A stretch of 64,000 nucleotides of DNA from Agreia sp. COWG. GTDB taxonomy: Bacteria; Actinomycetota; Actinomycetes; Actinomycetales; Microbacteriaceae. Within the stretch, counting starts at the first letter, position 1. Every line of letters starts with the position of its first letter. Positions 52,261 to 61,636 of the stretch are shown piece by piece. Made by a program: the position numbers and the translations under genes. The stretch spans positions 2,418,001-2,482,000 of the forward strand of contig NZ_LR882035.1 in assembly GCF_904528075.1 (NCBI RefSeq), written 5' to 3'. A model generated the notes under the pieces. It was given only the letters and a program-made list of their open reading frames with translations, was not told the origin of the DNA and ran no database searches.

Positions 52261-52905
52261 ATGCGACGACAGGCGAACCGCGCCCTTTATGTGGAAACGG
52301 TGATCGGGGCCCACGTCGATGACGTCTGGAGGCTCACCCAGACCCCCGAGCTGCACTCCCGGTGGGACCTGCGCTTCAGCCGCATCGCCCCGCTGGCGGC
52401 AGCGACAGACGGCGAGCCCAGCCGCTTCGTCTACGAGCGGCGGCTGCCGCTTCACACCATCAGAGGCACGGGGGTCTCCCTCGGGGAGCGCGGAGGTACG
52501 GACGGCTCGAGAACCTCCGCCCTCGTCTTCTCCACCCGCGACCCGATCTCGCCGCTGGCATCCGGTCGCGGCTATTGGCGCTACGTTCCCACTGACGACG
52601 GTTCGACCCGATTCATCACCGGCTACGACTACGAGCCGTTCGCCGGGGCCATAGGCGCCGCGCTCGACCGCCTGGTCACGCGCCGCCTCGTCTGGTGGAT
52701 GACCGCGTGGAGCTTCGACCGCCTGCGCATCTGGGCCGAGACGGGCGTCGCTCCAGAACGCTGGCCCGTCGCATCCGTCGCGGCGTTCTGGATGCGCGAG
52801 CGACCGCGCGCCGCGCGGTGCCTGTCGCGGCCCGCCAGGGCCGGGCGAACGCACGACGCCATGGCCGACGCCCCCGCCTCGCTGACCGGACTGGTCGAGT
52901 CATGA
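52261..52905 (+). CDS. SRPBCC-like ligand-binding protein
   Basis: 214 residues. The beginning ([37 protein letters not shown]) is a START/SRPBCC fold, with strands to about 145 and a conserved helix ([31 protein letters not shown]). Ligand unknown. The C-terminus is Arg/Ala-rich. AGGGG lies about 10 bases before the ATG. The stop overlaps the DUF4166 start (ATGA), so the two act as a pair. Confidence 0.8.
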
Positions 52906-53576
52906 CGAGCGTGTTCCAGAGGGCCCTCGGCGACGACTTCGGAAAACTGCACCCCATGATGCAGAGGCGCTTCGGGGTGGGCCTAGACGCGGGCTACGCC
53001 TGCATGGGCGCGGGCACGATGACAAGCATCCGCCGCGGTCCGTGGTGGACCGTCCCCTTTCTCTGGATCGGCCGCATCCGCAACATCCTGGTGCCGATCC
53101 AGGGCAAGAGTGTGCCCTTCACCGTCGAGAATTTTCCCTACGTCGACCCGTTCGGCCGAGAGACGGTCACGTTCGTCCGCAGCTATGGAACCGGCACGCA
53201 TCCGCATCGCTTCGACGCCACGATGATCTACAGCGAGTCGGCCGGCCGGGTGATCGACTACCTCGGAACCCACCAGCACCTCGCCGTCGACCTCGATCTC
53301 TCGGTCGGCGACGACGGCTCCCTGCTGCTCGTCTCAGATGCCCAGCGCTTCTACGAGGGGCCGATCGCCTTTCGCTTCCCGATGCTTTTCAGCGGCAGGG
53401 CCGAGCTGCGCGAGAGCTTCGACGACGATGCCGGCGTGTACCGCATCCACCTTGAGGTCACCAACCGCCGCTTCGGCTTTCTCTTCGGCTACACCGGTAC
53501 GTTCGAGTGCACGTTCCCCGCTGCGCAGGATGCTCCGGCTCGGCTCAGACCACGTCGGCACGAGCGCCGGGAATAG
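52902..53576 (+). CDS. DUF4166 domain protein
   Basis: 224 residues. LGDDFGKLHPMMQRRFGVG, ENFPYVDPFGRETVTFVRSY and GTHQHLAVDLDLSVGDDGSLLL are typical of DUF4166, a beta-rich family of unknown function often found with SRPBCC or oxidoreductase genes. It starts at ATG 52902 in the SRPBCC stop. Its 3' end overlaps the convergent EamA gene by 32 bases (53545-53576). Confidence 0.88.
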   Translation: MTSVFQRALGDDFGKLHPMMQRRFGVGLDAGYACMGAGTMTSIRRGPWWTVPFLWIGRIRNILVPIQGKSVPFTVENFPYVDPFGRETVTFVRSYGTGTHPHRFDATMIYSESAGRVIDYLGTHQHLAVDLDLSVGDDGSLLLVSDAQRFYEGPIAFRFPMLFSGRAELRESFDDDAGVYRIHLEVTNRRFGFLFGYTGTFECTFPAAQDAPARLRPRRHERRE

Positions 53577-54438
53577 TCCCCGGCCTCGCGCTGCGCACCG
53601 CCCCGATGCTCGCCACGACCACCAGGCCGATGGCGATGACCCCCAGCACGCTCACGTGCTGGGCCAGCAGCACGACTCCGGCGAGTGCCGCCATGGCGGG
53701 CGCCAGGCTCATGAGAATGGCGAAGCTCGACGACGGGATGCGGCGCAGCGCGAAGAGCTCGAGCGCGTAGGGAATGGTCGACGAGAGCAGGGCGACGGCC
53801 GCGCCGAGCAGCAGGATGTCGGGGCGCACGATGGCGGGACCGGCCGCCAACACCCCGAACGGCAGGGTGAGCACCGCACCGATCGCCATGGCGAGCGCGA
53901 GACCGTCGAGGCGCGCGAAGCGACTGCCCGTTCGAGACGAGAGCAGGATGTAGCCGGCCCAGGTTGCCCCGGCCCCGACCGCGAAGAGCACGCCGACGGG
54001 GTCGAGGTCGCCGAAGCTGCCCTGGCCGAGCAGAAAGACGCCGACGAAGGCCAGCACCGCCCACAACCAGCTCGACGCGCGCCTACTCGTCACGACCGAG
54101 AGCACCAGGGGACCGAGAACCTCGATCGTCACTGTCGCCCCGAGCGGGATACGCGCGAGCGCCTCGTAGAACAGGGCATTCATGAGGGCGAGGGCCAGGC
54201 CGAAGCCGACCACCGTCATCCAGTCGCCTCGGCTACGACCGCGCACGGACGGCCGAGCGATGGCCAAGAGCACCAGCGCCGAAAAGGTCAGCCGCAGCGC
54301 GACCATGCCGAGGGCACCCACGCTCGGAAAGAGCAGCACGGCGAAGGCCGCCCCGACCTCCTGGCAGACGAGCCCCACGACGACGAGGCCCGCCGCCGCC
54401 GAGGGTCCGCCGAAGCGAGCGCCTCGGACAGTCGTCAC
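53545..54438 (-). CDS. EamA/RhtA-type membrane exporter
   Basis: 297 residues, ten membrane helices in two EamA halves. VGLVCQEVGAAFAVLLFPSVGALGMVALRLTFSALVLL and IPLGATVTIEVLGPLVLSVV are like RhtA amino-acid exporters. The substrate is unknown; the operon context is lipid synthesis. GTG 54438 overlaps the stop of the flavoprotein gene (GTGA), so it is the last gene of the minus-strand operon 57625-53545. Its stop lies inside the convergent DUF4166 gene. Confidence 0.9.
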   Translation of the reverse strand: MTTVRGARFGGPSAAAGLVVVGLVCQEVGAAFAVLLFPSVGALGMVALRLTFSALVLLAIARPSVRGRSRGDWMTVVGFGLALALMNALFYEALARIPLGATVTIEVLGPLVLSVVTSRRASSWLWAVLAFVGVFLLGQGSFGDLDPVGVLFAVGAGATWAGYILLSSRTGSRFARLDGLALAMAIGAVLTLPFGVLAAGPAIVRPDILLLGAAVALLSSTIPYALELFALRRIPSSSFAILMSLAPAMAALAGVVLLAQHVSVLGVIAIGLVVVASIGAVRSARPGTIPGARADVV

Positions 54439-56102
54439 TCGTCGAGCAGAACCTTGCCGGGGTTGAAGTGCCGACCGGGGTCGACCGCCCCGAAGAGCCC
54501 GCGCATGATCTTCACGCCCTCGGTCGAGATGTCCTGCTCCATCCACGGCGCATGCTCGAGGCCCACACCGTGGTGGTGAGAGAGCGTTCCGCCCGCGTCG
54601 ATGAAGGCCTGCTGGATGGCCCGCTTCACCACGTCGTAGTTCGCGATCGCATCGCCCGTGTCGAGGTACGCGAACGTGAAGTAGAGGCACGCCCCCGAGG
54701 TATAGGAGTGCGAGAGGTGGGCCATGATCCAGCCCTGGACGCCGATCTCGTCGAACGCACGGTTGGCGCTGGCGATCACGTTGCGGTAGAGCTCGGGCAG
54801 CTTCGACCACGGCGCGGCGGTCTCGGAGACATCGGCCGAACCGCCCCAGTCGAGGAACCAGTCCCGGATGTAGGGGGTGTCGAACTTCTTCTGGTCGTAG
54901 AGCACGCCGGGGCCCTTGCCCACGGTGATGCCGCCGTGCTTCTTGACGATGCCGGCGATGATCTTCTGGTTCGTGGCGACCAGCTCTTCGCCGCCCTCGT
55001 TGCCGACGAACGACAGGCACATCTTCTCCGTGTCCCAGCCCTTGGCCTTCAAGAAGACGCCGAGGCCCTTGGTGGCGAGGGCGGAGAAGCCCTTGCTCTT
55101 CTTCGACGTGGCGAACGAGAACAGCGTCTCGTTGCCGTCGGAGACGCGGGTGATCGAGGGCGTGGCGTCGCTCTCGGAGATCTCGCGCATGGCCGCGAGC
55201 CCGGCATCCCAGGTGGGGTACAGGTAGGCGAGGATCTCGCGCTTGGCCGGGATGCGGTGGATCTGCACGGTGACCTCGGTGATGACCCCGAGGCGCCCCT
55301 CGCTGCCGAGGATCATCTCGCGCACGCTTGGTCCGGTCGAGGTACTGGGCAGCGGCCGCAGCACGAGCACGCCACCGGGGCGCACGACACGAAGACCCTT
55401 GGCGATGTCGGCGATGTCACCGAACTTGTCGCTCTGCATGCCCGAGGAGCGCGTCGCCACCCAGCCACCCACCGTGGAGTGGGTGAAGCTGTCGGGAAAG
55501 TGCCCGAGGGTCCAACCGGCCTCGTTCAGCTCGGCCTCGAGGTCGGGACCCTGGGCGCCGCCCTGGATGCGCGCGAGGCTCGAGTCGGCATCGACCTCGA
55601 TGACGCGGTTGAGTCGGCCGAGGTCGAGAGACACCACGGTGCGCTGCTCACCCGCGAGGGGCTCGAGGCTGCCGGCGATGTTGCTGCCGCCGCCGAAGGG
55701 GATGAGCACGGCGTCGGCAGCGACGACCGCATCGACGACGAGGCGTACCTCTGCCTCGTTGGCCGGATACACGACGACGTCGACCGCTCGAGGGAACGCG
55801 CTGGTGCGAACGCGGATCAGATCGCGGATGCTCTTGCCGAAGGTGTGCACGACCCGGGACATGTCATCGGTCTCGATGTGCCCGTCGCCGACGATACCCG
55901 CGAGAAGGGCGACGAAGGCCTCGGGGGCGCGACCGGCGGGAACGTCGATGTCGGCGAAGACCGGCGGCTCGCCCTTGGTCTTGGTCAGGTCGAGGCCCAG
56001 GTTCTTCTTCACGAAGGGGGCGAATCCCGGCTTGTTCTCGTGGTGGAACGCGACGCCGTCGACTCCCCAGCCCCACCACTTCATGTGCTTGACATCGCTC
56101 AA
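54435..56102 (-). CDS. Alkyl-DHAP-synthase-like FAD protein
   Basis: 555 residues, VAO-type FAD-binding protein. It closely follows the alkylglycerone-phosphate synthase pattern: PFGGGSNIAG (135-144) in the FAD domain, the segment 202-230 with FPDSFTHST, GGWVATRSSGMQ and KFGDI, and the active-site triple histidine HHHGVG (509-514). Alkyl-DHAP synthase replaces the acyl chain of acyl-DHAP with a fatty alcohol, making the ether bond. M. tuberculosis has similar proteins annotated AgpS. TTG 56102, with GAGGAG 7 bases upstream and overlapping the acyltransferase stop (TTGA), is the likely start; MKWWGWG at 56084 is an alternative. Confidence 0.88.
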   Translation of the reverse strand: MSDVKHMKWWGWGVDGVAFHHENKPGFAPFVKKNLGLDLTKTKGEPPVFADIDVPAGRAPEAFVALLAGIVGDGHIETDDMSRVVHTFGKSIRDLIRVRTSAFPRAVDVVVYPANEAEVRLVVDAVVAADAVLIPFGGGSNIAGSLEPLAGEQRTVVSLDLGRLNRVIEVDADSSLARIQGGAQGPDLEAELNEAGWTLGHFPDSFTHSTVGGWVATRSSGMQSDKFGDIADIAKGLRVVRPGGVLVLRPLPSTSTGPSVREMILGSEGRLGVITEVTVQIHRIPAKREILAYLYPTWDAGLAAMREISESDATPSITRVSDGNETLFSFATSKKSKGFSALATKGLGVFLKAKGWDTEKMCLSFVGNEGGEELVATNQKIIAGIVKKHGGITVGKGPGVLYDQKKFDTPYIRDWFLDWGGSADVSETAAPWSKLPELYRNVIASANRAFDEIGVQGWIMAHLSHSYTSGACLYFTFAYLDTGDAIANYDVVKRAIQQAFIDAGGTLSHHHGVGLEHAPWMEQDISTEGVKIMRGLFGAVDPGRHFNPGKVLLDE

Positions 56103-56848
56103 CGCAGGGCTCCTCTGGTTCGTGGGGACTGGGAAAGAATACTCGCCGAGTGCATCTCGCGCAGGCGCACGATCTCCTGCTTCGTGCGTTCGGCGAAGTG
56201 ACCGGGGGTCTCGCCCTCTAAGGCACGCAGCGGCTCGCCGAAGACCACGCCCACCGGGTAGCGGCCGCGGCGCGGCCAGTTGGCGCCACGCGGATGTGCG
56301 ACGTGGGCGCCGATCAGGGCCATGGGAATGCAGGGAACGTCACAGGATGCCGCGAGCGCCGCGGCCCCCGGCTTGAAGTAACCGAGCTCGCCGTCTTTAG
56401 AGCGCGTCCCCTCGGGGAAGATGAGGATGGGGATGCCCCTGCTGAGAAGCGAGCGGGCGCTGATCGACTTGGCCTTCGATTCCATGCGCTTCACCGGGAA
56501 TGCGTTGAAGAACAGGGCGGTCAGTCCACGCCGCCACCAGACGGCGAAGAAGTAGTCTGCCGCTGCTCCGGTGGCGAGGTAACGCGCGAGGCGGCGCGGG
56601 AGCGAGCCGACGATCAGCGGCGCATCCAGGTGGCTGGAGTGGTTCGCCACGACCACGAAGCCGCCCGCCACGTCCTTGAGCTTCTCGCGACCGATGACGG
56701 TCACGCGGGTCAGCGACCAGATGAGCGGCTTGAGCAGACCACGCTGCACGACGAAGCGGGCAGCGGCGTGGGCGGGCGAGTTGAAGCGATCGCGCTGTTC
56801 CTCGCCCGAAGGCTGGGCCTTCTTGGCCTGGGATTCTTCTTCAGTCAT
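56099..56848 (-). CDS. PlsC-type glycerophosphate/DHAP acyltransferase
   Basis: 249 residues. The acyltransferase motif NHSSHLD (69-75, His70 and Asp75) and FPEGTRS (144-150) identify the PlsC/GPAT superfamily. A hydrophobic N-terminal helix suggests membrane association. In context it may acylate DHAP (GNPAT-like) before ether exchange, or acylate alkyl-glycerol-3-phosphate; sequence cannot decide. The ATG 56848 follows directly after the SDR stop (TAG-ATG, no gap) and its stop overlaps the AgpS-like start. Confidence 0.93.
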   Translation of the reverse strand: MTEEESQAKKAQPSGEEQRDRFNSPAHAAARFVVQRGLLKPLIWSLTRVTVIGREKLKDVAGGFVVVANHSSHLDAPLIVGSLPRRLARYLATGAAADYFFAVWWRRGLTALFFNAFPVKRMESKAKSISARSLLSRGIPILIFPEGTRSKDGELGYFKPGAAALAASCDVPCIPMALIGAHVAHPRGANWPRRGRYPVGVVFGEPLRALEGETPGHFAERTKQEIVRLREMHSASILSQSPRTRGALR

Positions 56849-57625
56849 CTAGGAGACCGGCTTCTTTCGACTCGACGAGATCGATCCGGAGACGCTGCGG
56901 ATCGCACTTCTCGGTGCGTGGCGAGCCAACCAGATGAGGGTTCGGTACCGAACAGAGGGTATGGAGATCACTTTGCCCCTTTCAACATCGCGGATGCACG
57001 CTGCGACAAGGTATTCGGCGTCGAGCCACAAGAAGTTTGGGATGCTCGACGCTGTAATTCCGGCTCGCTCGTGAAATTCCGTGCGCACCCAGCCAGGGCA
57101 GAGAGCCGTTACCCCGATTCCCGTACCGCGCAGTTCGACGGCGAGCCCCTCGGAGAACGACAGCACCCAGGACTTGATGGCCGAGTAGCTTCCCATGGTC
57201 ACGTGGGCCGCCGTGCTCGACACGTTGACGATCTTGCCCCGGCCGCGGGGAAGCATCCCGCGCGCCGCGGCCCCCGACAGCACGAGGACGGCGCGGCACA
57301 TCACCTCGAACGCGTGGTCGTGGGCCGAGATGTCTGTGTCGATGAGCGAGGTGTGCACGCCGAAACCGGCGTTGTTCACCAGCATGTCGATGGGCCGAGA
57401 CGGATCTTCCAGGCGTTCGGCGACACGCGTCACATCGGCGCGGTCGGCGAGGTCGGCCTGCAGGATCTCGACGGAGCGGCCGAGGGCTCGGATTTCGGCG
57501 GCCATGCTCTCGAGCCGGTCGGCCTGACGGGCCACGAGAACAAGGTCATATCCCTGGGAAGCGAGGGACCGGGAGAACGCAGCGCCGATGCCGGACGTTC
57601 CTCCCGTAACGAGAGCTACAGCCAT
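56849..57625 (-). CDS. Short-chain dehydrogenase/reductase
   Basis: 258 residues. Classical SDR: cofactor motif TGGTSGIG (7-14), NNAG (84-87), catalytic Ser136/137, Tyr147 and Lys151 (SYSAIK). The C-terminus (about 200-258) is basic and hydrophobic, possibly membrane-associated. In the ether-lipid context it fits an alkyl/acyl-DHAP reductase. ATG 57625 has TAACCT 6 bases upstream (leaderless). It leads the minus-strand operon SDR-acyltransferase-AgpS-like-EamA, divergent from the ferritin-like/FAR genes. Confidence 0.92.
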   Translation of the reverse strand: MAVALVTGGTSGIGAAFSRSLASQGYDLVLVARQADRLESMAAEIRALGRSVEILQADLADRADVTRVAERLEDPSRPIDMLVNNAGFGVHTSLIDTDISAHDHAFEVMCRAVLVLSGAAARGMLPRGRGKIVNVSSTAAHVTMGSYSAIKSWVLSFSEGLAVELRGTGIGVTALCPGWVRTEFHERAGITASSIPNFLWLDAEYLVAACIRDVERGKVISIPSVRYRTLIWLARHAPRSAIRSVSGSISSSRKKPVS

Positions 57626-57631
57626 GGGCTT

Positions 57632-57637
57632 AGGTTA
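57632..57637 (-). promoter_or_regulatory. -10 element for leaderless SDR operon
   Basis: TAACCT (57637-57632) lies 6 bases before ATG 57625. A small inverted repeat (GTCTG-CT-CAGAC, 57638-57650 region) lies behind it in the 74-base divergent gap and could be an operator for both directions. Confidence 0.5.
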
Positions 57638-57699
57638 GTCTGCTCAGACGGCGTCGTTTACGCACGCAGGTTTTCGACCAGTCGTTGGGGCTTGATTTC

Positions 57700-58518
57700 A
57701 TGACAACACGAGACGACACGTCTTCACCGCGATTCGATGTACGCGAGTTCGCCAGCACGGCCCGCGGAAACCACCGCTCCGAACTGCAGCTCGAGCGCTA
57801 CGCCGACGCACGCTTGAGCGACGACGCGGTGCACCTGCTCCGCTATCTCGGCCGGCTCGAGAGCGCCACCATGGAACAGCTGCGCAATCTGCTGGTGACG
57901 GCCACACACAAAGATGCCAGGGTCACCGCGTTTCTCGTGACCTGGGCCTTCGAGAAGTTCTGGATCGCGGACGCCATCGACCAGATCCTGATCGCCAATG
58001 GCAGCCAGGGAGCCCAGGTCGGCGAGGAGGGCCCTCCCCGCTCACTCCGCTCGGAGGGTGCCGACAGGCGCGGTCCCATCCGCCGAGCCGTGCTCGCGAT
58101 GGGCCAGGGCGTTCCACTCACCGGCATGCACATGGCCACCGGCCTGATCGACGAGTGGGTCATGCGCACCTCGTACCAGCGCCTGATCACCATCGCCGGC
58201 AGCCCCACCCTCGAGACGACGATCGAGATGTTCGTCGACATCAAGAGCCGTCACGAGAAGTTCTTCAGCGGCGAAGCCCGCCGCCGCCTGGCGGAGTCGA
58301 CCAAGACGGTCAAGCAGACTACGGCCCAACTGGCTCACGCGGCCTGGCCCATCGGCGCGGTCGACAGATCGCATGCCGACCGCACCTTCTTCGCCCACAC
58401 GGTCTTCGGCGGCGCCGACGGACTCCAGCGTGCAACATCGATCGGACACAGAGTGGCAGAACTCCCCGGCCTCACCCCGCAGACCGGCGACGCCGTCGCC
58501 CGAAAGCTGCGCTCGTGA
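57700..58518 (+). CDS. Ferritin-like protein lacking di-iron ligands (paralogue 1)
   Basis: 272 residues, helical bundle homologous to the product of 60848-61636 (about 25-30% by eye). The helix-1 Glu54 and helix-3 Glu152 are kept, but where the paralogue has EEFWH this one reads EKFWI (85-89), and where it has EARH this one reads KSRH (182-185). At least three of six iron ligands are lost, so it is probably a non-catalytic partner. The region 104-128 (Gly/Pro/Arg-rich) is an insertion. Start ATG 57700; stop overlaps the next GTG (GTGA). Confidence 0.85.
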   Translation: MTTRDDTSSPRFDVREFASTARGNHRSELQLERYADARLSDDAVHLLRYLGRLESATMEQLRNLLVTATHKDARVTAFLVTWAFEKFWIADAIDQILIANGSQGAQVGEEGPPRSLRSEGADRRGPIRRAVLAMGQGVPLTGMHMATGLIDEWVMRTSYQRLITIAGSPTLETTIEMFVDIKSRHEKFFSGEARRRLAESTKTVKQTTAQLAHAAWPIGAVDRSHADRTFFAHTVFGGADGLQRATSIGHRVAELPGLTPQTGDAVARKLRS

Positions 58519-60833
58519 CCGCGCCCGACGTGACCGTGCCAGACGCCTTCTCGGCCACGCTCGACGCCGTCGCCACCGCCGGCCTCGGCTCCTCCCACGT
58601 ATTCATCACGGGCGGCACCGGCTTCGTGGGTCAGGCGATCGTGGAGCGGCTGCTGTCATCGCATCCGCAGACGACCATCTCGCTGCTCATCAGAACCAAG
58701 GGCAGCACCTCGGCAGAGGATCGTCTGCGCAATCTTCTGCGCAAGCCCGTGTTCGGCCCGTGGCGCGAGCGGGTCGGCGAGGCCGAGGTCGAGCGCGCGA
58801 TCTCCGAGCGCCTTCGCGTGATCCAGGGAGACCTCGGCAATGTCCCCGCCCTGCCGGCCGACCTCGACGTCGTGATCCACAGCGCGTCGACCGTGTCGTT
58901 CGACCCGCCGATCGACCAGGCCTTCGAAACGAATCTCGGCGGCGCGATCGCCCTTTACACGGCCCTGGCCGAATCCGGCGGCGACCCCCACGTGGTGCAT
59001 GTGTCGACCGCGTACGTGGGTGGCCTTCGTAAGGGAATCGTGCCAGAGGGAAGGCTCAAGCACGACGTCGACTGGCGAGCAGAACTCGCGGCGGCGAGGG
59101 ATGCCCGGGTGCGGGTCGAGATGGCATCGCGGCAACCCGAGACGCTGCGCACCTTCATGTCGGATGCGCGGGCTGTCCACGGCAAGGAGGGCCCCCAGTC
59201 GGTGGCCACCGTCGCCGAGTCGAAGCGCGTCGAGTGGGTGCGCGAGCGCCTCGTCGACTACGGCCGCAGCCGCGCCCAGAGCCTCGGCTGGACCGATGTC
59301 TACACGCTCACCAAGTCGTTCGCCGAGCGCGCCGCCGAAGAGCTCTGGCATGCGGCCGGACACCGGCTCTCGGTCGTGCGCCCGGCGATCATCGAGAGCG
59401 CCCTCAGGCACCCGTATCCGGGCTGGATCGATGGCTTCAAGGTGGCCGACCCCCTGGTTCTCGCCTACGCGCGAGGCAACCTCGCGCAGTTCCCCGCCCT
59501 GCCCGACACCGTGCTCGACGTGATTCCCGTCGACTACGTGGTGAACGTCATCCTGGCCGTGGCCGCCAACCCGCCCGCCGCAGAGCCCGAGTATTACCAC
59601 GTGAGCTCGGGTGCGCGGAATCCGCTGCCGATCCACCGCATGTTCACGAACATGAACGAGTTCTTCACCGCCAACCCGCTGCCGCACGAGAGCGACGGCC
59701 ACATCGAGGTTCCGTACTGGACCTTCCCCGGCAGCCGCAAGGTCGACCGCGTGCTGCACCGCCAGGAGGTGTGGAACGGTCGCCTCGAGACGGCCCTCGA
59801 GCGCCTGCCTTCCACCGAGCGCACGCGGGCACACGTGAAGAAGGCGCTGAAACGGCGCGATGACCTCGAGAACCTGCGCACGTTCGTGGAGCTGTACCGC
59901 GCCTACGTGCAGACCGAGATCATCTTCGACGACCGCAACACCCGCGCGCTGCACGAGGCCCTGCCTGTGGAGCTCCGCGACGACATCGGCTTCGACGTCA
60001 CCGCCATCGACTGGGAGACCTACCTGCAGAAGGTGCACTTCCCGGCCATCACCGCCATGACCCGTGCGTTCGCGCTGCGCCCCGCAGCCTCCGAGCGCGT
60101 GGCCAAGGCCCTGCCCCAACGCAGCGATGTGCTCGCCGTCTTCGACTTCGAGGGCACGGTGGTCGACTCGAACATCGTGGAGCAGTACCTCTGGGTGCGC
60201 TCGGCCGGCTTCCGAAAGGCGGCGTGGCCCAGCGAGGTCGCCAGCCTCCTGGCCTCGCTCCCCGGCTATCTGAAGGCCGAGCACCGCGACAGGGGCGAGT
60301 TCATCCGTGCCTTCCTTCGTCGCTACAGCGGCATGCCCGTGCAACGCCTCAGAAAGGTCGTCGCCGGCGGCTATCGCGAGACGCTCCTGCGACACACCAT
60401 GCCCGCCGCCGTGGCGCGCATCGAGCAGCACCGCGCCGCCGGACATCGCACCGTTCTCGTGACCGGATCCATCGGCATCCTCGCCTCGCCGCTGGCGAGC
60501 CTGTTCGATGACGTCGTCGCCGGTTCGATGCATGAGCGCGATGGAATACTCACGGGCTATCTCGCGCAGCCTCCGCTGGTCGACGAGGCGCGCGCAGCGT
60601 GGCTGCGTCGCTACGCCGAGACGCACAACATGGATCTGTCGAAGTCGTACGGCTACGGCGACAGCCACGCCGATCTGGTGTGGCTGCAGCTTCTCGGCAA
60701 CCCCACCGCGATCAACCCCGACACCAATCTCTCGCGCGAGGCGCTCCGAAGAAGATGGAGCATTCACAACTGGAAGCGCGGCCCCCGCGGGGCCGTCGCC
60801 CTGCCCCGATTCTCGAAGGGATCCGGAGAGTAA
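58515..60833 (+). CDS. Fatty-acyl reductase fused to HAD hydrolase
   Basis: 772 residues. The N-terminal half is a male-sterility-type fatty acyl-CoA/ACP reductase: GGTGFVG (33-39), VHVSTAYVGG and YTLTK (Tyr263, Lys267), with a charged insertion (about 180-250) and a FAR_C-like helical region (430-520). From ~538 a HAD-IB phosphatase domain follows: motif I DFEGT (544-548, Asp then Glu instead of Asp), TGS (650-652) and YGYGDSHAD (712-720). It would make fatty alcohol and remove a phosphate. GTG 58515 overlaps the upstream stop. Fusion of the two is notable. Confidence 0.9.
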   Translation: MTAPDVTVPDAFSATLDAVATAGLGSSHVFITGGTGFVGQAIVERLLSSHPQTTISLLIRTKGSTSAEDRLRNLLRKPVFGPWRERVGEAEVERAISERLRVIQGDLGNVPALPADLDVVIHSASTVSFDPPIDQAFETNLGGAIALYTALAESGGDPHVVHVSTAYVGGLRKGIVPEGRLKHDVDWRAELAAARDARVRVEMASRQPETLRTFMSDARAVHGKEGPQSVATVAESKRVEWVRERLVDYGRSRAQSLGWTDVYTLTKSFAERAAEELWHAAGHRLSVVRPAIIESALRHPYPGWIDGFKVADPLVLAYARGNLAQFPALPDTVLDVIPVDYVVNVILAVAANPPAAEPEYYHVSSGARNPLPIHRMFTNMNEFFTANPLPHESDGHIEVPYWTFPGSRKVDRVLHRQEVWNGRLETALERLPSTERTRAHVKKALKRRDDLENLRTFVELYRAYVQTEIIFDDRNTRALHEALPVELRDDIGFDVTAIDWETYLQKVHFPAITAMTRAFALRPAASERVAKALPQRSDVLAVFDFEGTVVDSNIVEQYLWVRSAGFRKAAWPSEVASLLASLPGYLKAEHRDRGEFIRAFLRRYSGMPVQRLRKVVAGGYRETLLRHTMPAAVARIEQHRAAGHRTVLVTGSIGILASPLASLFDDVVAGSMHERDGILTGYLAQPPLVDEARAAWLRRYAETHNMDLSKSYGYGDSHADLVWLQLLGNPTAINPDTNLSREALRRRWSIHNWKRGPRGAVALPRFSKGSGE

Positions 60834-60847
60834 ACTCTCCTCACACC

Positions 60848-61636
60848 ATGGCATTCGACGTAGACAAATACACCGCCACTTCAGTGAGCGTGAACTGGGA
60901 CGATCTCGATCTCGAGCGATTCCGCGAACACCCACTCCCCGAGGGCTCCCTTCGCACCCTGCGCTACATGGCCGACGTGGAATATCACACGGTCTGCTAC
61001 ACGCGTGACCTGCTCACCACTCCCTCGCACAAAGAGGCCGAGATGGGCGCGTTCATGACCATGTGGAACCGCGAGGAGTTCTGGCACGGCGAGGCCTTGG
61101 CCACCGTCCTCGGCATCCACGGCATCGTCGTCGACTTCGACGAGCTGAAGGCCAAACGGCTCAAGCTCGGCTGGCGCGACAAGCTCGACCCCATCAAGCA
61201 GTCCGTGATCGGCAAGGTCGTCGGCGCCGACTTCGTGGCCGTGCACATGGCCTGGGGCGCGGCGAACGAGTGGTCGGCCATCACCGCGTACAACCGCATG
61301 GCGGCGCTCGAAGAAGACCCGGTCTTGGCTGAGCTCCTCAAGCGCATCGCGAAGCAGGAGGCCCGCCACGTTGCCTTCTACACCTCACAGGCACGCGAGC
61401 GCCTCGCCAAGAGCACAAAGGCGCAGAAGTTCGCGCGCTTCGCCCTGAGCAACTTCTGGGCTCCCGTCGGCTCCAGCATCATGGAGAAGAACGAGGTCAA
61501 GCACGTGATGGGTCACCTCATGGGTGGCGTCGAGGGTCGCAAGGCTGCCCGCAAGATCGACACGGCCATCAGCGGCCTGCCCGGTCTCGAGGGACTCACC
61601 ATCGTCGATGACTCCCTCAACGCGCTCGGGGTCTGA
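60848..61636 (+). CDS. Ferritin-like di-iron protein (paralogue 2)
   Basis: 262 residues, four-helix bundle with the full di-iron pattern Glu45, EEFWH (Glu77, His80), Glu141 and EARH (Glu171, His174), the E/ExxH/E/ExxH layout of soluble acyl-ACP desaturases and related di-iron oxygenases. It is therefore a candidate oxygen-dependent enzyme. No signal peptide. A TAAACT at 60831 overlapping the FAR stop could be a promoter. It follows the FAR-HAD gene by 14 bases, in the same direction; the Gfo/Idh gene begins 12 bases after it. Confidence 0.88.
   Translation: MAFDVDKYTATSVSVNWDDLDLERFREHPLPEGSLRTLRYMADVEYHTVCYTRDLLTTPSHKEAEMGAFMTMWNREEFWHGEALATVLGIHGIVVDFDELKAKRLKLGWRDKLDPIKQSVIGKVVGADFVAVHMAWGAANEWSAITAYNRMAALEEDPVLAELLKRIAKQEARHVAFYTSQARERLAKSTKAQKFARFALSNFWAPVGSSIMEKNEVKHVMGHLMGGVEGRKAARKIDTAISGLPGLEGLTIVDDSLNALGV

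Follow-up and report, generated by a model that had tools for sequence, protein, structure and literature searches.

In the genome of Agreia sp. COWG (Microbacteriaceae), a divergent cluster of six genes is read here as an aerobic ether-glycerolipid pathway of the eukaryotic and myxobacterial type, in which two ferritin-like proteins, FLP1 and FLP2, would act as the desaturase. We give this reading a probability of about 0.5. The cluster lies in a stretch of 64,000 nucleotides (NZ_LR882035.1, positions 2,418,001 to 2,482,000; called the window below), which is part of a 3.44 Mb genome. Our direct basis is the gene content, homology, linkage, predicted fold, ligand pattern and the absence of two vinyl-ether families; every reaction of the pathway, above all the FLP step, is what we infer from it. 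Ether-lipid synthesis as such is very probable and strongly supported, because the flavoprotein AgpS has AGPS-level similarity, the linkage survives rearrangement and natural PlsC-AgpS fusions exist. Thus the ether-lipid cluster in an aerobe that a sequence-only reading of the window had proposed is upheld. Plasmalogens as the end product in Subtercola, Agreia and Frigoribacterium are likely, since dimethyl acetals (DMA) are published for carriers of the cluster and the families PF10520 and PF09989 are absent from six genomes. FLP1/FLP2 is a good but unproven candidate for the vinyl-ether desaturase, at close to an even bet.

In the proposed pathway, FAR would convert a branched acyl-CoA to a fatty alcohol, PlsC would acylate dihydroxyacetone phosphate (DHAP), and AgpS would exchange the acyl group for the fatty alcohol to form the ether bond. 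SDR would then reduce alkyl-DHAP to alkyl-glycerol 3-phosphate, which could enter normal phospholipid and glycolipid synthesis. The soluble di-iron protein FLP2, together with the ligand-poor FLP1, may turn the alkyl ether into the vinyl ether of a plasmalogen in an O2-dependent step, replacing CarF/PEDS1. All genes named by the sequence-only reading are present where it had placed them:

53545-54438, minus strand: EamA/RhtA-like exporter (PF00892; RhtA model below cut-off)
54435-56102, minus strand: AgpS, alkyl-DHAP (glycerone)-phosphate-synthase-like flavoprotein (TTG start; PF01565 and PF02913; putative ether-bond role)
56099-56848, minus strand: PlsC-family acyltransferase, proposed DHAP acyltransferase (GNPAT role; PF01553, E 2.8e-22)
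56849-57625, minus strand: SDR, proposed 1-alkyl(acyl)-DHAP reductase (PF00106, E 4.1e-44)
57626-57699, no strand: divergent intergenic region between both transcripts, from the coordinates
57700-58518, plus strand: FLP1, putative degenerate ferritin-like partner protein
58515-60833, plus strand: FAR-HAD fusion (FAR match at residues 24-513; HAD-like domain at residues 541-723, nucleotides 60135-60683)
60848-61636, plus strand: FLP2, di-iron ferritin-like protein, candidate vinyl-ether (delta-1') desaturase

Two transcripts start 74 bases apart and run outward: the left one reads SDR-PlsC-AgpS(-EamA), the right one FLP1-FAR/HAD-FLP2. The genes overlap by 4 bases at EamA/AgpS, AgpS/PlsC and FLP1/FAR; SDR and PlsC abut, and 14 bases separate FAR from FLP2. 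A scan of 57626-57699 gave no match to a sigma-70-type promoter or to a terminator. The seven proteins listed above share 78-100% identity with their counterparts in the named Agreia loci (L167, L200, L204 and L207).

AgpS is a member of the AGPS family, and acyl-to-alkyl exchange activity is predicted for it. Its best PDB matches are to Dictyostelium AGPS (2uuu, 392 bits, E 3.5e-116, residues 51-551), and guinea-pig AGPS (4bby) follows with 285 bits and E 1.5e-83, while the best oxidase with flavin adenine dinucleotide (FAD) outside AGPS, glycolate oxidase, reaches 83 bits (E 2.2e-22). The match to AGPS is near full length and covers both the FAD-binding and the C-terminal domain. Inspection of the alignment by hand reveals identical residues in AgpS at R419, R515, Y578 and H615-617 of the guinea-pig enzyme, which we take to be active-site residues. 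Residues R319, R413, Y474 and H509-511 (numbering of the first row of the alignment) are invariant in 12 of 12 actinobacterial AgpS sequences. The earlier identification of an alkyl-DHAP-synthase-like flavoprotein is therefore confirmed, with these AGPS residues kept. In one genome (G135) the AgpS gene (L020:4546-6200) matches in two pieces, possibly owing to a frameshift or an assembly error.

PlsC and SDR are clear members of their families, and their DHAP and alkyl-DHAP substrates are proposed from domain, adjacency and fusion. Named genomes were scanned with the AgpS alignment, and from 385 relatives the best 80 loci were kept, with up to 10 kb on each side; the counts over 80 loci refer to this survey. 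PlsC adjoins AgpS in 79 of them, the remaining one being cut at AgpS, and SDR is found in 78. The best NCBIfam model for SDR is mycolate reductase, at 165.8 bits far below the cut-off of 380. Natural PlsC-AgpS fusions of about 800 residues, with PlsC N-terminal, are seen in at least two proteins (P0200 and P0202) among the matches listed (120 of 6390; 8000 candidates scored), and one fusion protein comes from Phytoactinopolyspora halotolerans. These fusions argue that PlsC makes the substrate of AgpS.

FAR is a member of the FAR family with predicted alcohol-forming activity. It matches PF07993 with E 4.5e-45 (154.2 bits, cut-off 20.1), and residues 24-513 match the fatty acyl-CoA reductase 7eoz of the PDB (E 8.1e-44). 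The motifs G[GA]TGF[VL]G and YxxxK are kept in 56 of 56 sequences, after rows of 700 residues or fewer (2 of 57) were dropped. The Sterile domain PF03015 (cut-off 35.4) gives 32.3 bits in the window protein, 33.1 in Subtercola vilae and 36.2 in Jiangella. The fused HAD-like domain matches PF12710 with E 4e-32. Its motif is DxE in all 56 sequences and not the usual DxD, so this domain may not be an ordinary phosphatase.

Two ferritin-like proteins had been described in the window. Both are there, but they are not equivalent, since the full set of di-iron ligands is found in FLP2 alone. FLP2 bears E, ExxH, E and ExxH on a desaturase-like predicted fold. It scores 22.3 bits against PF03405, below the gathering cut-off of 22.7, and several of its homologues bear PF03405 in a precomputed table (among the matches listed, 120 of 907). 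Because the cut-off is narrowly missed, FLP2 is classed by its predicted fold as desaturase-like only. FLP1 has no Pfam match up to E 0.1 and no NCBIfam match up to E 0.01. Its AF2 model (pLDDT 85.5) retrieves R2lox and acyl-acyl carrier protein (acyl-ACP) desaturases by Foldseek, with E > 0.001. The FLP2 ligand positions E77, H80 and E171 are altered in the window FLP1 and in 58 of 58 FLP1 rows of the fetched loci, a count that excludes the window. To judge from these positions, FLP1 is a degenerate, ligand-poor paralogue or partner of FLP2.

The linkage within the family was examined in 199 Microbacteriaceae genomes. FLP is present in 60, FAR in 56 and a close AgpS in 55; at E 1e-60 AgpS is found in 59, the 34-37% identity of four of these (G017, G063, G064 and G142) being too low for the close set. 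FLP and FAR occur together in 55 genomes, FLP alone in 5, FAR alone in 1 and neither in 138. Of the 61 genomes that have FLP or FAR, 51 carry the complete divergent set of six genes (50 loci and the window), and so the neighbourhood conservation that the sequence-only reading had suggested checking is indeed observed. Both the co-occurrence and the clustering are more than chance. The other ten genomes comprise two cut by contig ends (L025, L039), two in which about 7 kb separate FAR from the FLP pair (G097, G159), one without FLPs (G101, locus L060) and five with an adjacent FLP1-FLP2 pair alone. Three of the 50 loci have an additional PlsC-like stretch between FAR and FLP2. Nearly every FLP-bearing genome has both FLP1 and FLP2; in G113 only one is seen because the contig stops there, and a further, partial match occurs in G176.

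The linkage also survives REARRANGEMENT, and it extends to Streptomyces, Phytoactinopolyspora and Ruania. The six genes are complete in 56 of the 80 named loci. Nine carry AgpS-PlsC-SDR-FAR without FLPs (six Jiangella, Segeticoccus, Naasia and Phytoactinopolyspora halophila), 13 carry AgpS-PlsC-SDR only, including Propionibacteriaceae and Microlunatus and some short contigs, and two are cut short. The modules seem to nest, SDR-PlsC-AgpS first, FAR next and the FLP pair last. Extra PlsC copies ignored, the six genes appear in four orders, namely the common divergent one, one with all six in the same direction (Ruania and Occultella), one with SDR divergent from FLP1-FAR-FLP2-PlsC-AgpS (one Streptomyces), and that of Phytoactinopolyspora alkaliphila. 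No Kineococcus locus is among the best 80. PlsC also adjoins AgpS of 57-58% identity in two loci (L113, L114). Far AgpS sequences (35-39%) outside the family, in 11 loci (L115-L125), have no flanking PlsC or FAR and one weak SDR. On a Streptomyces plasmid of 2.35 Mb (NZ_CP109481.1:1074759-1082735), FLP2 and AgpS lie about 6 kb apart.

Several Subtercola loci and one Labedella locus hold an extended version of the cluster. In S. vilae FLP2 is directly followed by a DAGK-like kinase gene, and between FAR and FLP2 lies the gene of a Lar_N (lactate racemase N-terminal) protein; these extra genes are at L143:621-1724(-) and L143:3501-5201(-). A second PlsC-like stretch is found between FAR and FLP2 in several Subtercola loci and one Labedella locus (L140-L142, L149, L162).

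The published lipid profiles, cited here from excerpts of the papers, place acetals in carriers of the cluster. DMA are reported in S. vilae, S. lobariae, S. boreus and S. frigoramans, with 17.0% i-16:0 DMA in S. vilae DB165 (PMC5945732), which agrees with what the sequence-only reading had said of Subtercola. The same excerpt gives i-15:0 DMA of up to 4% for Agreia, a genus-level report and not one for the strain of the window. Anteiso-15:0 aldehyde/DMA is reported in Frigoribacterium adelgis and is also cited for F. faeni (PMC12823222). Reports of DMA in aerobic actinobacteria go back to 2000 (Mannisto et al., as cited in PMC5945732 and PMC7472656). Carriers of the cluster are S. vilae DB165, whose lipids were analysed in that very strain, as well as S. 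lobariae, three S. boreus strains, Agreia pratensis and F. faeni NBRC 103066; both FLPs are found in 12 of 12 Subtercola genomes.

PF10520, the Lipid_desat domain of CarF/PEDS1, has no match in six genomes (the window's own, S. vilae, S. lobariae, S. boreus P27479, F. faeni and A. pratensis), while the control G224 matches in the same search and 4 of 149 genomes of the phylum match as well. PF09989, which we take to be the domain of the anaerobic PlsA, is likewise found in none of these six, with controls matching in 4 of 14. Both were rejected as the source of acetals in these relatives. With both absent, the acetals of Subtercola, Agreia and Frigoribacterium need another source, for which the cluster is the obvious candidate. 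G327, an actinobacterial genome from a different class, has a PF10520 gene (C68:3197-3664) and a 38% AgpS-like gene (C69:3023-4507) on separate contigs.

In Kineococcus rubinsiae, the MIDI peak 'C14:0 2-OH' is anteiso-15:0 DMA by gas chromatography-mass spectrometry (PMC7472656). The same MIDI name may stand for anteiso-15:0 DMA in several actinobacterial species descriptions, and in Microbacteriaceae it is probably often a C15 acetal. For S. boreus and S. frigoramans, 10.4% and 9.9% '2OH-C14:0' by MIDI (PMC9287328) compare with 11.0% and 10.3% a-15:0 DMA and no 14:0 2-OH in the excerpt of PMC5945732. The corresponding pairs are 15.6 versus 3.2 in S. vilae and 3.9 versus 9.7 in S. lobariae, so that the two papers agree well in two of four species. 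S. lobariae is listed with both compounds in PMC5945732 (14:0 2-OH 10.3); its column sums to about 114%, and thus two analyses seem to be merged. Frondihabitans has 14:0 2-OH as a major component and no DMA in the same excerpt. In PMC7033078, '14:0 2-OH' amounts to 17.0% in F. faeni and 4.2% in Glaciihabitans tibetensis, with traces only in Lacisediminihabitans profunda and Lysinibacter cavernae. By analogy, the '14:0 2-OH' of Frondihabitans, F. faeni and G. tibetensis would on this reading be an acetal too. An FLP2 from another Lacisediminihabitans species is in the database (P0102, among the 120 of 907 matches listed). On the lipid phenotype of Jiangella, Naasia and Ruania, and on 2-OH in other genera, little was found in the open-licence literature.

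Several results weigh against this reading. Five genomes, Leifsonia-, Agromyces- and Humibacter-like (L047, L048, L053, L054, L055), keep the FLP pair without FAR or a close AgpS, so the pair can persist without them. In the FLP2 tree (68 rows, excluding L039, with FLP1 at a contig end, and L062, from the same genome as L038; long-branch warning at the outgroup), the FLP-only sequences are nested among cluster-borne ones, and they join Agreia, Glaciihabitans and the Frigoribacterium/Frondihabitans group in one clade with good support. Provided that the root falls outside this clade, as drawn, the FLP-only state is derived, through loss of its partner genes or a regain within one branch. No lipid theme is apparent among 18 proteins around three of these pairs (L047, L054, L055) and around distant homologues (L126-L130); they include DNA ligase, LigD-type primase, NusA, luciferase-like and Mfd-like proteins, a tRNA synthetase, EAL and alpha/beta-hydrolase proteins, and three without a family. 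In other classes, more distant homologues of FLP2 occur mostly as single copies, and no FAR or AgpS adjoins them in 17 short and 7 longer loci; membership of the wider family therefore need not imply a part in ether-lipid synthesis. Three of these genomes (G338, G469, G559) have a distant AgpS elsewhere. The nearest fold of FLP2 is that of an in-chain acyl-ACP desaturase, the ten best rows having 14-19% identity. A Subtercola genome taken as S. endophyticus has both FLPs, and the excerpt of PMC9287328 gives this species without '2OH-C14:0', a gene-phenotype miss; the profiles of that paper are odd for Subtercola, with 76.7% summed feature 8. For two other Frigoribacterium species no acetal is reported in the excerpt of PMC12823222. 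Finally, acetals can also arise from aldehydes.

The FLP-only pairs and the nearest fold of FLP2 would both fit a pathway that makes saturated alkyl ethers only, with FLP1/FLP2 desaturating or hydroxylating a chain elsewhere (e.g. anteiso-15:1) and the acetals coming from another source. The FLP-free AgpS-PlsC-SDR-FAR loci of Jiangella, Naasia, Segeticoccus and Phytoactinopolyspora halophila point the same way, as do reports of anteiso-15:1 in some actinobacteria together with DMA or 14:0 2-OH (excerpts of PMC5945732, PMC7472656 and PMC7033078). However, FAR lies between FLP1 and FLP2 in most loci, the pair accompanies the cluster again in other families, every examined Subtercola, Agreia and Frigoribacterium genome has the FLP pair, and the six tested are without PF10520 and PF09989; we consider this alternative rather unlikely. 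The aldehyde origin belongs to an account in which ether lipids are made, the acetals stem from free or bound fatty aldehydes that FAR produces and methanolysis sets free, rather than from vinyl ethers, and FLP is an aldehyde-deformylating or oxidising enzyme, which we regard as improbable. It could also be argued that AgpS is an ordinary FAD oxidase and that the neighbourhood makes wax esters or fatty alcohols and no ether lipids, as PF01565 and PF02913 occur in glycolate and lactate oxidases as well. The scores of both AGPS structures against at most 83 bits for any other oxidase, the PlsC-AgpS fusions and the near-constant company of PlsC and SDR make this highly improbable.

Ether-lipid synthesis with FLP1/FLP2 as the desaturase is the reading we retain. 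For the earlier proposal of a di-iron vinyl-ether desaturase, the desaturase-like fold and the intact ligands stand, while the activity is unproven, FLP pairs also occur without FAR or a close AgpS, and the S. endophyticus miss counts against it. The proposed match between the cluster and published DMA holds for Subtercola, Agreia and F. faeni and fails for S. endophyticus and the two Frigoribacterium species. The claim of plasmalogens is favoured by these acetals and by the absence of both families.

The exporter had been counted with the cluster, and we rejected it as part of the pathway. EamA stands beside AgpS in 3 of 62 Microbacteriaceae loci, all of the genus Agreia, and in the named Agreia loci; in locus L022 it is present, but on the far side. 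Being a neighbour in this one genus only, the exporter falls outside the conserved system. A DUF4166 protein (52695-53576), upstream of the cluster, adjoins it only in other Agreia loci.

Among the closest known systems is that of Myxococcus xanthus, with the MXAN_1676-1674 operon, the elb cluster and CarF (excerpt of PMC9131029). It shares AGPS, FAR, a GNPAT-like acyltransferase, NAD-dependent epimerase/dehydratase-type proteins and a HAD protein, as well as an aerobic life and branched alkyl- and vinyl-ether lipids. In Agreia, by contrast, FAR and HAD form one protein, PlsC has a gene of its own, the six genes form one compact cluster, and two ferritin-like proteins are found in place of a PF10520/CarF match. 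The four activities before desaturation can be assigned one to one to mammalian FAR1, GNPAT, AGPS and AGNPR/PexRAP (PMC9131029), as the sequence-only reading had suggested for the eukaryotic route. The mammalian PEDS1 is a membrane protein, whereas the Agreia candidate is bacterial and a soluble di-iron protein. Moreover, the polar lipids of Subtercola, Agreia and Frigoribacterium are phosphatidylglycerol, diphosphatidylglycerol and unnamed ones, with phosphatidylethanolamine not listed in the excerpts of PMC5945732 and PMC12823222. The anaerobic PlsA/PlsR reductive pathway (PMC9702350) shares the vinyl ether lipid as end product; here PF09989 is missing from the six genomes, and an AGPS route with a proposed O2 enzyme is seen instead. 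Compared with soluble acyl-ACP desaturases such as castor stearoyl-ACP desaturase and M. tuberculosis DesA2, to which the low identity and the near miss to PF03405 apply, FLP2 would act on an ether lipid and has in FLP1 a partner without part of the metal site.

According to the excerpt of a 2022 review (PMC9131029), myxobacteria are a striking exception among aerobic bacteria in having plasmalogens, and true CarF homologues beyond them are reported only in Leptospira. In the open-licence literature we found no gene assignment for actinobacterial DMA and no ferritin-like protein linked to plasmalogens. Tentatively, and at somewhat less than even odds, FLP1/FLP2 would be a third independent solution to vinyl-ether formation, a soluble heteromeric di-iron enzyme of acyl-ACP-desaturase-like type, with one subunit that bears the metal and one that is poor in it, encoded within an actinobacterial ether-lipid cluster; 'C14:0 2-OH' would be largely anteiso-15:0 DMA, and aerobic plasmalogens would therefore be widespread in Microbacteriaceae, the genes having moved into Streptomyces and others. 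The cluster is a testable gene assignment for actinobacterial DMA, in cultured and sequenced strains with published lipid tables. It suggests that the chemotaxonomic marker 'C14:0 2-OH' is misread in Microbacteriaceae, and in FLP1/FLP2 it offers what may be a new class of enzyme that forms vinyl ethers.

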